Shown in pieces: positions 37,270 through 42,930 of a stretch of 45,239 bases of DNA (the first letter of the stretch is position 1; the number at the start of each line of letters is the position of its first letter). The position numbers and the translations under genes were made by a program. Source of the DNA: an uncultured Propionibacteriaceae bacterium (GTDB taxonomy: Bacteria; Actinomycetota; Actinomycetes; Propionibacteriales; Propionibacteriaceae); NCBI GenBank assembly GCA_902805915.1, contig CADCUO010000082.1:1-45239 (forward strand), read 5' to 3'. The notes under the pieces were generated by a model, which saw nothing but the letters and a program-made list of their open reading frames with translations, was not told where the DNA came from and did not search any database.

Positions 37270-38058
37270 TCAGGGCTTTGATCCGACCAGCAGGTCCTGA
37301 TGCTGGAAGCGATCCACCGCCAGCCATGCTGCGCCGACGATGCCGGCGGAGTTCAGCAGCTTGGCTGGGACGATCTCCGCCTTCAGTTTGAGCAGGGGAA
37401 GGAACTTCTCGGCGTCCTTGCTGACCCCGCCGCCCACAACGATCAGGTCAGGTGAGAAAAGCTTCTCGATCACGTCGTAGTAGCGCTGGAGCCGCTTGGC
37501 GTACTTCTCGTAGGACAGACCCAGTTTGTCCTTGACGCTGGACGCGGCCTGGGTCTCGGCGTCGTGGCCGTCGATCTCGAGGTGGCCGAGCTCGGAGTTG
37601 GGGACCAGCACCCCGCGGTAGATGATCGCGCTGCCGATCCCGGTGCCCAAGGTGGTCAGCAGCACTAGACCGGGGTGGTCCTTGGCCGCGCCGTAGTGAG
37701 CCTCGGCCGCACCCGCGGCGTCGGCGTCGTTCACCAGGTAGATGTCGCGACCGAGCGCCTCCTCGAAGATCTTCTCCGCCGGGGCGTCGATCCAGGACTT
37801 GTCGATGTTGGCGGCGGACCGGGTCACCCCGTGGGTCACCACGGCGGGAATCGTCACGCCGATAGGGCCTTCACCGATCTGGTCAGCGAAGTTTGCGACG
37901 ATCTCGGCGACCACCTTCGCCACGTTCTCCGGTGTGGACTTCTTCGGCGTCTCGATCCGCAGCCGCTTGGAAGCAAGCTCTCCGGTGTCCAGTTTGACGG
38001 GGGCACCCTTGATGCCGCTACCGCCGATGTCGATGCCAAGCACAGGTCGATCGCTCAT
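37270..38058 (-). CDS. ppgK: Polyphosphate glucokinase
   Basis: A 262-residue ROK-type kinase that phosphorylates glucose with inorganic polyphosphate or ATP, a hallmark of actinobacteria. [14 protein letters not shown] (8-21) is the phosphate-binding loop, and [12 protein letters not shown] and [15 protein letters not shown] (catalytic Asp) form the sugar site. [12 protein letters not shown] and [11 protein letters not shown] complete the ATP and polyphosphate region, and the length matches characterised PpgK. Lone transcription is likely: its neighbours are convergent argS and a divergent SRPBCC gene. It feeds glucose-6-phosphate to Pgi encoded at 27.3-29.0 kb. Confidence 0.95.
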
Positions 38059-38155: not shown

Positions 38156-38608
38156 GTGCCAGCCCCAAGAGTTGCCGAAGCCAGCCGTCTCATTCCCGCT
38201 CCCGCGTCAGCGATTTTCGACCTGTTGGCCCGACCGGCTCAGCATGCGTTGATTGACGGCTCCGGGACTGTGCGGGACATCCAGCCTGGCACTCCGGAGC
38301 GGTTGTCCGCCGGCGCCCGGTTCGGGATGCAGATGCGCTGGGGGCTGCCGTACAAGATCCTGAACGAGGTGGTGGAGTTCGAGCCGGACCGTCGGATTGC
38401 CTGGCGACACTTCGGCGGACACGTGTGGCGCTACATCCTGGAACCGGTGGACGAGCACCGGACTCGGGTGACGGAGCAGTTCGACCATCGCGGATCGAGG
38501 TCGCCGCTGTTCTTGTCACTGATCAGAGCCCAGCGGCGCAACCAAACCTCGATGGAGCGGACGCTGCTGCGGCTGGAGCGGTGGGCGGCGGGCCGTCCTT
38601 CGAGCTGA
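38156..38608 (+). CDS. SRPBCC (START-like) family protein
   Basis: A 150-residue protein of the polyketide-cyclase/dehydrase-like SRPBCC fold. ASRLIPAPASAIFDLLARPAQHALIDGSG at the start and VVEFEPDRRIAWRHFGG and WRYILEPVDEHRTRVTEQFDH in the middle are characteristic strands of this hydrophobic-ligand-binding fold. The start at GTG 38156 trims a long upstream in-frame extension that lies opposite ppgK and is not coding-like. It may bind or modify a lipid-like molecule; no specific role is visible. Confidence 0.82.
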   Translation: MPAPRVAEASRLIPAPASAIFDLLARPAQHALIDGSGTVRDIQPGTPERLSAGARFGMQMRWGLPYKILNEVVEFEPDRRIAWRHFGGHVWRYILEPVDEHRTRVTEQFDHRGSRSPLFLSLIRAQRRNQTSMERTLLRLERWAAGRPSS

Positions 38609-38677: not shown

Positions 38678-41107
38678 CTACGACGAGGGGCCGATAACTG
38701 GACTGGGTCGCAGCTGCTCCAGGCACCAGGCATACAGCCGCTGGTCGAACCGGTGCGCTGAAGAGAAGTAAAATCCGTAGAACCGCCGATACACCGCGAT
38801 CCAGGGCCGAATGTCCTCACCTAGCTGGGCTACCGCCTGCTCGGTCAGCCAGGCGGCGTCCTCAGCCGCGGCGGGATAGGACTCCAGCTCCAGGAAGCAG
38901 ATGGCTCCGGTCACGTCCAGCAGCGGGTCGGCCGCCAAGGTGTGCGGACTGAAGTCGACCACTCCGGTGACCACCGGTGTTTCGTCCGGACCGCGGCTGA
39001 CGAAGGCATTCGCCGGGCAGAAGTCCCCGTGCACCACGTACGGCAGGCTAACCCGCCCTGCGATGTCGGTGTGCCACTGCGCCCACACCTGCGCCACCTC
39101 GGGCAGGTCGGCCGTCAGCCGGGCCTGGCTGGCGCCGATCACCCGGTGCAGCTGAGCACTCAGCACAGCGGCTAGGGACGGGAAGTGCTCCGGGGCGCCG
39201 TCGCCGACCAACCGGGCGAAGCCGGCGACCGGCGAGGGCAGCCGGTAGATCGAGGAGGCAACCCGGAGATAGCTGAGCAGGGCGACCCTGCGCTCCGACT
39301 CAGGTGCCTCAGCGAGCCAGCCGGAGAAGTTCCGGCCGGACATCCGCCGATCCACATTGTAGAAGCGCCCGGCGCACTCACCTGCATCCACGATCCGGGG
39401 TACCTCGAACCCCGGGTCGGTTGCGGCCCAGTAGTCATACAGCGCGCGCAGCTGGGCGGCGACCTGAACGGGACCCTCGTGGTCCTCGCGGTACAGCCGC
39501 AGCACATGATCAACGTCGAGGGCGAACACCCGGGACTCGCTGCCAGCGCCGAGGAACGCGTCGTCGGCGATGCCCAAGTGTGCCAGCACGGCGGCCTCAC
39601 TTCGCTCCGGTGAGTCCCCGCTCCGCTCGGGCAACGTTTGGCCGAGCTGGGCTGCGGGGCGGGGGGAGCGGCGGGCGGCCAGCCGGTTCCGGTCCAGCTT
39701 CCGGGCAGCCCTTGCCCGGTCGAGCTGGCTCATCGCCAGCGCTCGGGCGTCCGCCTCGTCCAGCTCGCGAGCGACCGCGTTGACCGGTCCTCTGGGGGTG
39801 TCGATGTGAACGTCGGCGAGTCGTAGCCGGCATTGCAGGGGGCCTTGCTGGATCCGCACCGACTGTGTCTTCGCGTGCGGTACGACGTTGCGTACCCGGG
39901 ACAGCAGACCGTGTTCGGTGATCAGCACCGCGTCGTCCCAGCCGTAGCGGAGGGTGTGCGCGGTGAACCAGTGGAGCCAGCGAGCACGCGGTGGTGATCG
40001 ATGCAGCTCGATGGCGTCGAGGTCGATGTCAGGCAGAACCTCGTCCAGGGCACGCTGGACCTCGACCGAGGTGGCGACCGGCAACAGCACGCTGGTGGCG
40101 TCGGACTCGTTGTTCTCACCCGCGGATGCGCCGTACCCAAGGATGTCCACGTCCACCCGGTACCAGTCGAATGGGCGCCACAGCAGCGGTTGGGACACCT
40201 TGATGCCCTGGATGCGGTCCACCGGCACGGACTGGCTGGTCAGGTTGGTGAGTCCGCGGGTGACCCTGAGCCCTCGTGGTGACTCAGCCAGCGTGAAGTG
40301 GAACATCGCCACCACCCGACGGCCGATCATCGAGACGCTGCCGATGAGCAACGGGATCAGGCCGGGCAGGGCGTACGTGACAACCCCGTTCAGTGCCGCC
40401 ACCCCCAGCGCCACCACAGTGATGGTCACCGTGACCAGCCACTCGCTGGAGAGCAGGAAGCCGCCCACCAACCGCTGCGGTGTGATCGTGACGATCGGGC
40501 GGTCAGAGGCGGTCAGATCGGTCAGCGGACTGGCGGCCGGCCCCAGGGTCGCCTGCGCCCGGCTGGCCCGTTCTCCCGACGCCCGCGCCAGGAGATAGTC
40601 GCGCAGTTGGGTGGCGTTGCTGCGGGAGAGGTAGCGCAGCTTGATGGTGCTGTCCCCGGCTCCCACCTCCAGCCGCAGCTCGGCCAGCCCGAACATGCGG
40701 GCGGCGAACGGCTGGATGACATCGATCGACTGCAGCCGTTCGAACGCCACCCGCTTGGAGTTCTTGAACAGGGCGCCGGTCTCGATCCGTAGCTCTTCGT
40801 CGTCGATGACGAAGCGGGTGAAGTACCAGGACATGAACCCGATCAGACCGGCACCGAGCACGACCAGCGACAGCACCGGAAGCACCCAGGCCAGGTCCGA
40901 TACGGAGAGGTCGCGGTCGTTGGACCCGTTGGGGAGCAGGTCGCGTCCGAAGCCCACGATGATCGCGACCAGAACGAGCCATCCCCGGATGAAGGGGGTG
41001 AGCGGATGGGGTCGCTCGGTCTGCTTCACGGTGGGTGCACCCGACACCGGCGGCGCCACCCCCGTAGCTTGCGTACCGGGAGGTGGGCTGTGGTCCTGCT
41101 GAGTCAT
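38678..41107 (-). CDS. Double bacterial-PH membrane protein fused to an APH-fold kinase domain
   Basis: An 809-residue protein in one open frame. Residues about 30-470 match a YdbT-like architecture: helix pairs at 40-58 and 73-95, a first bPH_2 unit (about 100-175, RFVIDDEELRIETGALF), a second helix pair (about 212-256) and second and third bPH-like units (about 265-460, FTLAESPRGLRVTRGLTNL; VLITEHGLLSRVRNVVPH). A Pro/Arg/Glu linker (about 471-506) leads to an APH-like kinase (507-809) with FLGAGSESRVFAL, VLRLYR, the Brenner motif HGDFCPANAF (693-702) and VVDFS (Asp718). It is the last gene of a four-gene operon; its ATG overlaps the previous stop by 4 bp. GTG 39589, with GTGAGG upstream, could start the kinase separately. 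A one-base indel near 39661-39666 could also create the fusion artificially. Confidence 0.8.
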   Translation of the reverse strand: MTQQDHSPPPGTQATGVAPPVSGAPTVKQTERPHPLTPFIRGWLVLVAIIVGFGRDLLPNGSNDRDLSVSDLAWVLPVLSLVVLGAGLIGFMSWYFTRFVIDDEELRIETGALFKNSKRVAFERLQSIDVIQPFAARMFGLAELRLEVGAGDSTIKLRYLSRSNATQLRDYLLARASGERASRAQATLGPAASPLTDLTASDRPIVTITPQRLVGGFLLSSEWLVTVTITVVALGVAALNGVVTYALPGLIPLLIGSVSMIGRRVVAMFHFTLAESPRGLRVTRGLTNLTSQSVPVDRIQGIKVSQPLLWRPFDWYRVDVDILGYGASAGENNESDATSVLLPVATSVEVQRALDEVLPDIDLDAIELHRSPPRARWLHWFTAHTLRYGWDDAVLITEHGLLSRVRNVVPHAKTQSVRIQQGPLQCRLRLADVHIDTPRGPVNAVARELDEADARALAMSQLDRARAARKLDRNRLAARRSPRPAAQLGQTLPERSGDSPERSEAAVLAHLGIADDAFLGAGSESRVFALDVDHVLRLYREDHEGPVQVAAQLRALYDYWAATDPGFEVPRIVDAGECAGRFYNVDRRMSGRNFSGWLAEAPESERRVALLSYLRVASSIYRLPSPVAGFARLVGDGAPEHFPSLAAVLSAQLHRVIGASQARLTADLPEVAQVWAQWHTDIAGRVSLPYVVHGDFCPANAFVSRGPDETPVVTGVVDFSPHTLAADPLLDVTGAICFLELESYPAAAEDAAWLTEQAVAQLGEDIRPWIAVYRRFYGFYFSSAHRFDQRLYAWCLEQLRPSPVIGPSS

Positions 41108-41595
41108 AGCCCGGACGCTTGCGATTCGCCCAGTTCCGTCAGCCGGTCACGCAGCCGGGCTGCCTCCTCGGGCGTGAGCCCTGGGATGGTGGCGTCCGTG
41201 CTGGCGCTCGCTGTGTGCAGGCTCACCGAGGCTAGGCCGAAAGCCCGTTCCAGCGGCCCAGACTCCACCTCCACCAGCTGCATTCGGCCGTACGGCACCG
41301 CGACGAGGGTGCGGAAGAGGACCCCGTGGGTGATGTAGAGGTCGTCCTCTCGCTCCGCGTAGCCCCAGGAACGCCAGTTGCGCTCCACCAGGAGCAGCCG
41401 GAGCACCACGATCACGGCGGCGCAGCCCCAGATGATCGCGGAGATCCACCACTGGCCGGTCAGCACTCCCACCAGGATGGCGGGGATGCTGAAGAGGATG
41501 GGGGCTACGAGGACGGTGGTGAGCCGACGCAGCGACCGGTACTTGGGGGACAGGCGCTTCCACTCGTACGCGGGTGGAGCGAAGAGTTCTTCCAT
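41104..41595 (-). CDS. Small bacterial-PH membrane protein (YdbS-like)
   Basis: A 163-residue protein starting at ATG 41595 with two adjacent membrane helices (VLVAPILFSIPAILVGVLTG and WWISAIIWGCAAVIVVLRLL). A bPH_2 (DUF304) domain follows, with LYITHGVLFRTLVAVPYGRM and QLVEVESGPLERAFGLASV. Small and large bPH proteins encoded side by side (ydbS-ydbT) are common in Gram-positive bacteria. In Bacillus this pair is linked to resistance to an antimicrobial peptide. It overlaps the following PH/kinase gene by 4 bp and follows the DUF1707 gene by 8 bp, so it is tightly cotranscribed. Confidence 0.85.
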   Translation of the reverse strand: MEELFAPPAYEWKRLSPKYRSLRRLTTVLVAPILFSIPAILVGVLTGQWWISAIIWGCAAVIVVLRLLLVERNWRSWGYAEREDDLYITHGVLFRTLVAVPYGRMQLVEVESGPLERAFGLASVSLHTASASTDATIPGLTPEEAARLRDRLTELGESQASGL

Positions 41596-41603
41596 GACGA
41601 ATC

Positions 41604-42215
41604 TCAGGTTAGAGCCCGCATCCAACCTGGACTGCGTCTGGGCCCACGGACCTTGACCTCGCCGAGGATGTTGGTGCCCGTGATCACGACGGTGGGTCGA
41701 TCCGGCTGCGGGTCTCCGATCCCCCGAATCGAGGTGCTGCCGAGCACATTGGTGGTCTCGTCTCGGATGGTGACGCCGAGCGGCACCCGGAGCAGCAGAG
41801 TGCCGCAGAACTGCGTGGTGTTGACCTCGACCACCGGGGCGTCGAACGTGGCCTCCGTCAGATCGAGGTTGACGGTGCCGAGCAGGTTGTTCGCGACGCT
41901 TCGGGCCCGTACCCGCCAGTTGCCGTTGCGCTTCACTGTGGACAGCACTGCCGACATCCGGTCCGGTTCCCCGAGCGGACCGGCGCTCGGCACCAACGGT
42001 GAGGAGCCTGAGGAGCTGTGCTGGACCGAAGTCGGGATGGGTACCAGGTCGGCGGTCAGCGGGAGCAGGTCGGCGAAGGTCTTGGCGGCCAGCGCTGCCT
42101 CCAGACGCTCGGTGTGCTCCTCCCGGGTGATCCGGCCCTCGACGTAGGCCAGCTGGAGGACGGCGGCGACCTGGTCACGGTCCGCGTCCGAGGCGCGGAT
42201 GTCGGGAGTACTCAT
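41604..42215 (-). CDS. DUF1707 protein, second tandem copy
   Basis: A 203-residue protein starting at ATG 42215. The N-terminal DUF1707 domain (about 5-57) has IRASDADRDQVAAVLQLAYVEGRIT, then EEHTERLEAALAAKTFADL. The C-terminal beta-rich region (about 85-200) is like the cell-wall-active antibiotic response (LiaF C-terminal) domain, with VNLDLTEATFDAPVVEVN and repeated beta-helix-like turns. No membrane helix is predicted. It overlaps the upstream paralogue by 4 bp (ATGA). It shares domain order with that copy but has diverged strongly, suggesting an old tandem duplication. Confidence 0.87.
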   Translation of the reverse strand: MSTPDIRASDADRDQVAAVLQLAYVEGRITREEHTERLEAALAAKTFADLLPLTADLVPIPTSVQHSSSGSSPLVPSAGPLGEPDRMSAVLSTVKRNGNWRVRARSVANNLLGTVNLDLTEATFDAPVVEVNTTQFCGTLLLRVPLGVTIRDETTNVLGSTSIRGIGDPQPDRPTVVITGTNILGEVKVRGPRRSPGWMRALT

Positions 42216-42871
42216 CGGTCCTGCTGCATTGCTGACCCTGGGCCACGAACGGACACGCCACCGAACAGGGAAAGCCCCTTGATCACCAGTGTCGGGGCGC
42301 CGGGCTGCGGCCGGCCCAGGTCGCGGATATCCGTGCCGCCGAAGACGCCGGCCGTCTGGTCGCGCACCTCCATCCCTTCCGGGAGCTTGACCTGCATGCC
42401 GCCGAAGCACCAGAAGCCTGCGATCTCCACTACGGGGTTCTCGAAGAACGCGTCGCGCAGGTCGAGATCCACGCCGCCGAAGAGAGCGAGGGACTTGATC
42501 TGCCGGCGAACGCGCCACTGACCCGACCGTCGGATGCCGCCAAAAACGGCGATGATTCGGTCCGGCTGGCTCTGTGGGTTGGAGTCGTCGACGGCGACTG
42601 TGCTGGCGGGGGCCGGCGGGCGGGTGAGGTCGCGCACCGACGGGCCGGGGGAGACGTCCACCAGATCGCGGGTAATCGGGATCAGGTCGTCGAACGTCTT
42701 GGCGGCAAGCACCTGATGCAGCCGCTCGTCATGCTCCTCACGGGACAGCCGCCCCTCGGCGTACGCGGTGCTGAGAACGGTGGCGACCTGGTCGCGATCA
42801 GCGTCAGCGGCCCTCAGGTAGCCCCTAGCCACGGGGCTGGCGGGAGGTAGTTCGGGTGTGCTCGGATTCAC
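42212..42871 (-). CDS. DUF1707 protein, first tandem copy
   Basis: A 219-residue protein, first gene of the operon. The DUF1707 domain (about 15-68) reads YLRAADADRDQVATVLSTAY and EGRLSREEHDERLHQVLAAK. The C-terminal LiaF-like beta domain has FGGIRRSGQWRVRRQIKSLA, FGGVDLDLRDAFFENPVVEI and FGGTDIRDLG, with a recurring FGG turn about every 25-40 residues. The GTG at 42871 was chosen because the protein motif begins soon after. ATG 42913 is an alternative that would lie on the inverted repeat at 42911-42930. No good ribosome site is seen for either. Confidence 0.87.
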   Translation of the reverse strand: MNPSTPELPPASPVARGYLRAADADRDQVATVLSTAYAEGRLSREEHDERLHQVLAAKTFDDLIPITRDLVDVSPGPSVRDLTRPPAPASTVAVDDSNPQSQPDRIIAVFGGIRRSGQWRVRRQIKSLALFGGVDLDLRDAFFENPVVEIAGFWCFGGMQVKLPEGMEVRDQTAGVFGGTDIRDLGRPQPGAPTLVIKGLSLFGGVSVRGPGSAMQQDR

Positions 42872-42910
42872 CGGACCACGGTAACGCCGCCGTCGACCGT
42901 CCACGAGGAA

Positions 42911-42930
42911 CATCTGGCCTGAACCAGGTG
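42911..42930. promoter_or_regulatory. Imperfect inverted repeat upstream of the DUF1707-PH-kinase operon
   Basis: CATCTGG-CCTGAA-CCAGGTG pairs 6 of 7 positions in its arms and lies about 40 bp before the operon's GTG. It is the clearest symmetric site in the 226-bp gap to the divergent gene at 43098 and so the best candidate operator. The assignment is by position and symmetry only. Confidence 0.35.

Follow-up and report, generated by a model that had tools for sequence, protein, structure and literature searches.

The window, that is, the whole stretch of 45,239 nucleotides that was analysed, carries on its reverse strand a gene in which a YdbT-type half and an APH-fold kinase half are joined in one open frame of 809 residues (Table 1). 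We consider it practically certain that this fusion itself is real. Our explanation as a whole, mechanism included, is that of a fused, YdbS-paired, membrane-tethered active kinase that derives from one ancestral joining, and we give it about an even chance (roughly 0.5). Both halves belong to known families, and the novelty is best filed as a genus-wide joining of known parts. The YdbT-APH architecture goes unmentioned in the titles and abstract openings of the open-access papers that the literature searches listed.

Table 1. Fusion gene, its parts and its neighbours; positions are those of the window
Feature	Position	Strand	Basis
YdbT~APH fusion gene, 809 aa	38678..41107	-	Open frame; Pfam bPH_2 and APH; same-frame conservation
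Predicted membrane hairpin 1, residues 37-96	40820..40999	-	Model helices 37-57 and 69-96 (moderate confidence); hydropathy peaks
bPH_2 domain 1, residues 94-172 (in the model ~98-176)	40592..40828	-	Best Pfam stretch
Predicted membrane hairpin 2, residues 210-268	40304..40480	-	Model helices 210-218, 221-239 and 243-268; hydropathy
bPH_2 domain 2, ~residues 271-357	40037..40297	-	Model strands and helix (limits from the model); Pfam stretch
bPH_2 domain 3, ~residues 387-450	39758..39949	-	Model; Pfam count of three stretches
Helix and variable unstructured linker, residues 451-499	39611..39757	-	pLDDT <50 at 475-498; linker alignment
APH-fold kinase half, residues 500-809	38681..39610	-	Pfam APH; model pLDDT 90.5; Foldseek APH(4)-Ia, TM 0.70
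Catalytic motif HGDFCPAN, residues 693-700	39008..39031	-	D695 and N700 in 19/19 fused proteins and in 25/25 kinase domains, five of them stand-alone
Motif DFS with putative metal-binding Asp, residues 718-720	38948..38956	-	D718 and S720 in 25/25 kinase domains; metal binding assigned by analogy with APH kinases
YdbS-like partner, 163 aa, one bPH_2, two hydrophobic helices; ATGA overlap with the fusion	41104..41595	-	Pfam, hydropathy
DUF1707 gene b (start inferred from ATGA overlap)	41604..42215	-	Pfam
DUF1707 gene a	42212..42913	-	Pfam
Polyphosphate--glucose phosphotransferase (PPGK), conserved downstream neighbour	37270..38058	-	NF045942, 341.3 bits against a cut-off of 250
Polyketide_cyc2 (SRPBCC) gene between fusion and PPGK, convergent	38180-38608	+	Pfam

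Comparison with Pfam detected both halves in the one protein. The bPH_2 domain (PF03703) was matched in three stretches, with E 1.4e-39 and 134.6 bits against a gathering cut-off of 22, and the APH domain (PF01636) at residues 519-743, with E 3e-11 and with 44 and 46.4 bits against a gathering cut-off of 23.2. A preliminary description of this DNA had reported the two domain signatures and the continuous frame; both signatures lie above their cut-offs and the frame is present exactly as given. The motifs that it had listed, namely the glycine-rich FLGAGSESRVFAL, VLRLYR, HGDFCPANAF and VVDFS, were all found in the translation. Its label "double-PH" has to be corrected, as Pfam and the structure model alike show three bPH stretches in the YdbT half instead of two. 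All 11 fused proteins scanned had a bPH_2 match, and APH was matched in 18 of 21 kinase domains (E 0.01) and in seven of 11 full-length proteins (E 0.001). The first half is named YdbT-like on the strength of its domain order and gene pairing: it has three bPH_2 domains and membrane hairpins, and a YdbS-like gene adjoins it.

The genome from which the window comes is an assembly of 250 contigs that is 83.9% complete, so an assembly error had to be weighed. The kinase half was sought in 96 relatives, and each of the 20 genomes searched from the window's genus, its own among them, has it. Kinase and ydbT lie in the same frame in 19 of the 19 other genomes, nine of which are single-contig assemblies, and the two separate genes that had been set beforehand as evidence against a fusion were found in none of them. 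Since close relatives carry the same joined gene, the fusion is a real and conserved one. One genome, G014 (locus L046), has a contig that starts inside ydbT and leaves only its last ~54 residues visible; this locus is absent from the full-length alignment of 19 rows but is included in the kinase alignment. A TGA lay inside the matches of G008 and G043 when these were first listed, and the profile search lists both without stops. The linker of the 19 aligned proteins varies from 9 to 34 residues and is always in frame. Given such linkers and the nine single-contig genomes, a base error near 39661-39666 is very unlikely, and a frame error or a false assembly join was rejected. The pN/pS ratio, estimated for seven pairs among the 19 aligned genes, ranged over 0.17-0.37 for the bPH half and 0.20-0.45 for the kinase half; the short linker gave 0.39-1.07. 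Judged by these values, both halves are under purifying selection.

Could the frame still be an artefact of assembly or base calling, or could its halves be made as two proteins by internal initiation? The state of the window's assembly would allow the first, and the second could draw on the in-frame GTG or TTG found in the junction stretch of 17 of 19 members and on a Shine-Dalgarno-like word present there in eight of 19. However, the same frame recurs in the 19 other genomes, including the nine single-contig ones, ATG occurs in the junction stretch of no member (0/19), L033 and L037 have no in-frame ATG, GTG or TTG there, and the Shine-Dalgarno-like words stand at differing places. Two proteins through an internal start are not supported by these codons and words, and we hold artefact and internal initiation together to be highly improbable. 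The product would be one chain of ~87 kDa.

Modelling of the kinase half, also proposed in the preliminary description, gave an APH fold (pLDDT 90.5 and pTM 0.89 when this half is modelled alone). The best match of this model among solved structures in a Foldseek comparison with the PDB was APH(4)-Ia, a hygromycin-B kinase, with E 1.8e-10, TM 0.70 and 20% identity. A profile search of PDB sequences with the kinase half placed 3w0r first (E 6.9e-10), and a single-sequence search of the PDB returned no kinase at E up to 1. As APH(4)-Ia is only ~20% identical, the match to a hygromycin-B kinase is not predictive of the substrate. The APH(3') aminoglycoside kinase was rejected as a named function, because NF033068 (aminoglycoside O-phosphotransferase APH(3'), NCBIfam) gave 13.9 and 17.1 bits, far below its curated cut-off of 205. 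A link to phage defence was rejected as well: neither the fusion nor its kinase half nor YdbS matched any PADLOC defence model up to E 0.1.

Conserved residues were compared in 25 kinase domains, 20 of them fused and five stand-alone. D695, N700, D718, D727 and D731 are found in all 25. Of the 20 fused domains, 19 retain the glycine of the HGD motif (L049 has A); the five stand-alone domains have L, A, V, N or L at this place. All 25 domains carry Arg in place of the third-strand Lys, which is present in six more distant kinases. Since APH(4)-Ia shares this Arg, the replacement is no sign of a dead enzyme. Three further residues, S720, H722 and Y780, are likewise present in all 25 domains and differ in the six distant kinases. 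Their occurrence in both fused and stand-alone kinases suggests one shared chemistry that is older than the fusion, and this chemistry may not need the membrane. Most likely the kinase half is active and is kept next to YdbS, on the inner side of the membrane.

The model of the whole chain had a mean pLDDT of 71.9 and a pTM of 0.44, with low confidence between domains and moderate confidence in the membrane part. It places membrane-type helices at residues 37-57, 69-96, 210-239 and 243-268 and a long helix that extends up to residue 479, and the hydropathy profile is consistent with two membrane hairpins in the YdbT half. When the full-length model was compared with the PDB, the 50 matches listed were all kinases of APH fold, with no bPH protein among the matches listed. 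At a pTM of 0.44, and with no bPH protein among these matches, the docking of the parts and the bPH folds are here without backing from solved structures.

It is useful to compare the fusion with the ydbT loci of other genera of the family, of which we fetched 11 from 10 genomes. All had ydbS, PPGK was on the fetched stretch in nine of 11 and DUF1707 in eight of 11, and the kinase half lay beside ydbT in none of the 11 (all match pieces, E up to 0.01). A genome-wide search for the kinase half (E up to 0.001) drew a blank in nine of these 10 genomes; in the tenth, G043, the kinase lies on a different contig. The genome G024, from another genus, has two ydbS-ydbT pairs, L054 and L055, and only the L054 pair lies beside PPGK and ArgRS. 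The tails of unfused YdbT proteins vary, and several are rich in Pro and Ala; with tails so variable, a kinase could be added to a free tail and leave both parts intact.

Across the family, the kinase was detected by profile search (E up to 1e-10) in 28 of 198 genomes, namely the 20 of the genus and eight of the 178 others. The latter eight belong to five genera; two of their matches are weak and none lies in a frame of more than 434 residues. For the stand-alone kinases L052 and L106-L111 (genera g25, g18, g28 and g12), the DNA that was fetched, some of it from short contigs, contains no ydbT. A contig scan with the kinase half as a single sequence returned nothing. The corresponding profile scan returned 13 loci, ten fused and three not, and reached M. 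speluncae, M. parietis, M. flavus, M. kandeliicorticis and M. endophyticus as well as MAGs titled Propionibacteriaceae bacterium, Friedmanniella sp. and Microlunatus sp.; the window's genus is thus probably Microlunatus. Farther out, samples from the class (394 genomes), the phylum (396) and the order (293) contained no fused match outside the genus. In these samples six to eight candidates per genome were scored at strict E cut-offs, and a different kinase fused to bPH_2 would escape them.

Long kinase frames (748-776) in four order genomes were rejected as bPH fusions, the bPH match being absent. In the order genus g34, positions 355-2409 of L025 hold an adenosine deaminase (PF00962, E 1.4e-96) and an APH kinase (E 5.2e-15) in one frame, according to Pfam; L026 and L027 of this genus look by eye like the same adenosine deaminase-kinase frame. 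The long frame of L024 looks by eye like a chance frame.

A tree was built from 35 kinases. One branch, with support of 73/94, separates the 20 that are fused from the rest, which corresponds to one change, found in 74% of 200 bootstrap trees. The tree fits a single fusion event with moderate support.

The genes around the fusion are closely packed on its upstream side. ATGA overlaps at 42212-42215 and 41104-41107 and an 8-base gap from DUF1707 gene b to ydbS make up a chain. Elsewhere in the genus, 18 of 19 loci have DUF1707, ydbS and the fusion side by side; the odd one out is L046, whose contig is cut. A scan for promoters and terminators found nothing above shuffles. The tandem DUF1707 genes have weak, below-cut-off LiaF-like matches at their C-terminal ends (Pfam), and several relatives seem to have only one DUF1707 gene, judged from the positions of best matches.

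This arrangement bears on the possibility of a regulatory kinase, one that phosphorylates YdbS, YdbT itself or a neighbour such as DUF1707 and thereby switches the YdbST module. The fusion brings the kinase within reach of YdbST, the three kinds of gene are chained by overlaps or the 8-base gap, and the weakest matches of the PDB profile search (E 0.03 and above) include eukaryotic protein kinases. However, fold and motifs are those of the APH group, whose characterised members act mostly on small molecules, and Pfam returned no protein-kinase family for the window protein. We therefore regard a regulatory role as quite unlikely.

On the downstream side, PPGK follows the fusion on the same strand in 18 of 18 genus loci that cover this part (19 examined). 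The gap between them is 10-139 bases in seven of these loci and 422-2215 in eleven; in four genus genomes (L043-L046) it amounts to ~1.9-2.2 kb. In the window PPGK lies 619 bases downstream, with a convergent gene in between. A relative of this Polyketide_cyc2 gene was matched only in L033, L035, L039, L041 and L049. If M. phosphovorus NM-1 is among the genomes with the fusion, as may be the case, the adjoining PPGK gene there may be MLP_RS02595, a guess from the tag number. MLP_RS02595 is reported to be more strongly expressed in the anaerobic phase (PMC6754071).

So constant a neighbour, with seven loci at 10-139 bases, could mean that the kinase works with the adjoining polyphosphate glucokinase in one operon. 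Yet PPGK follows ydbT in the kinase-free genera too, where it starts 3-106 bases after ydbT in eight of nine measurable loci (1231 in one) out of the 11, so this neighbour need not concern the kinase. The gap of 422-2215 bases in 11 of 18 loci, and of 619 bases with the convergent gene in the window, also speaks against such a link, which we judge improbable. Polyphosphate kinase was rejected as a distinguishing trait; it occurs in 21 of 21 relatives and is therefore uninformative.

If the fusion is an active, membrane-tethered kinase, then we can ask: How could it have arisen, and what would it do? In the order of events that we infer, a stand-alone APH-fold kinase gene came behind ydbT in the ancestor of the genus, upstream of the polyphosphate glucokinase gene, and was then joined in frame to the loose YdbT tail. 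The product would be one membrane protein, the YdbT part of which, with two membrane hairpins and three presumably cytosolic bPH domains, would pair with YdbS and keep the kinase flexibly tethered to the inner side of the cell membrane; tethering would be the purpose of the joining. The use of ATP and the presence of bPH domains both suggest the cytosolic side. The kinase, if catalytically active as proposed, would spend ATP or GTP on the phosphorylation of a small or amphipathic molecule whose synthesis, entry or exit takes place at that membrane.

The YdbT part may be more than a holder. YdbST may carry an amphipathic compound through the membrane or extract it from there while the fused kinase phosphorylates the same compound, so that both act as one processing unit. 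The YdbS/YdbT-like DdE and DdF of Enterococcus faecalis are reported to be needed for export of a leaderless bacteriocin, enterocin DD14 (PMC8657885). Similarly, PH-domain proteins occur in leaderless-bacteriocin clusters of Actinomycetota, including a member of the Propionibacteriaceae (PMC11580447, in excerpt), B. subtilis ydbST is placed in the sigma-W regulon (PMC3498285, in excerpt), and in ACAD10/11 a kinase domain is fused to the enzyme that acts next in the pathway (PMC12440821, in excerpt). However, the claim of transport comes from one system, and the stand-alone kinase homologues have no link to ydbT, so we regard tagging coupled to transport as rather unlikely. By analogy, the export role of DdE and DdF, the PH-domain proteins of leaderless-bacteriocin clusters and the sigma-W control of ydbST make an amphipathic or envelope-linked substrate plausible for the tethered kinase.

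A more definite form of the tethered-kinase reading is a genus-wide unit at the inner membrane face, in which YdbST captures an amphipathic membrane compound and the tethered APH-type kinase phosphorylates it there. We offer it as a tentative proposal whose chances we put low. If true, such a capture-and-phosphorylate unit would give YdbST, whose role is poorly known, a directly assayable chemical readout. An enzyme fused to a protein of this poorly known pair is in any case a clue, as the substrate of the kinase would be a candidate cargo or partner of YdbST. The locus also offers a clear case in which a gene entered an older neighbourhood and then fused, probably once, within one genus.

The fusion resembles known systems in each of its halves. 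The likeness to YdbS/YdbT (COG3402/COG3428, PF03703) lies in the three bPH_2 stretches, the membrane hairpins and the overlapping single-bPH YdbS-like gene upstream; YdbT is described with three PHb2 domains and YdbS with one in PMC8657885, where the YdbT-like proteins whose sizes were noted have 458-527 aa. In contrast to these, the fusion adds a kinase of ~300 residues after the third bPH domain, and it has four, not six, predicted membrane helices. With APH(4)-Ia (3w0m, 3w0r; PF01636) the kinase half shares the fold (TM 0.70), the HxDxxxxN and D..DP motifs and the Arg in place of Lys in the VLR strand, but it is only ~20% identical, has invariant residues of its own in DFSPHT and in the C-terminal helix, and is fused to a membrane protein. 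The kinases of ACAD10 and ACAD11 we take to be APH-type. In these two proteins and in AAC(6')-Ie/APH(2'')-Ia a kinase also forms one half of a two-part protein (PMC12440821, in excerpt; PDB titles), whereas the partner there is another enzyme and here a membrane bPH protein. The adenosine deaminase-APH frame of genus g34 (L025-L027) is likewise an in-frame fusion, of a more distant APH kinase, and differs in having another partner and, in the tree, another kinase branch.
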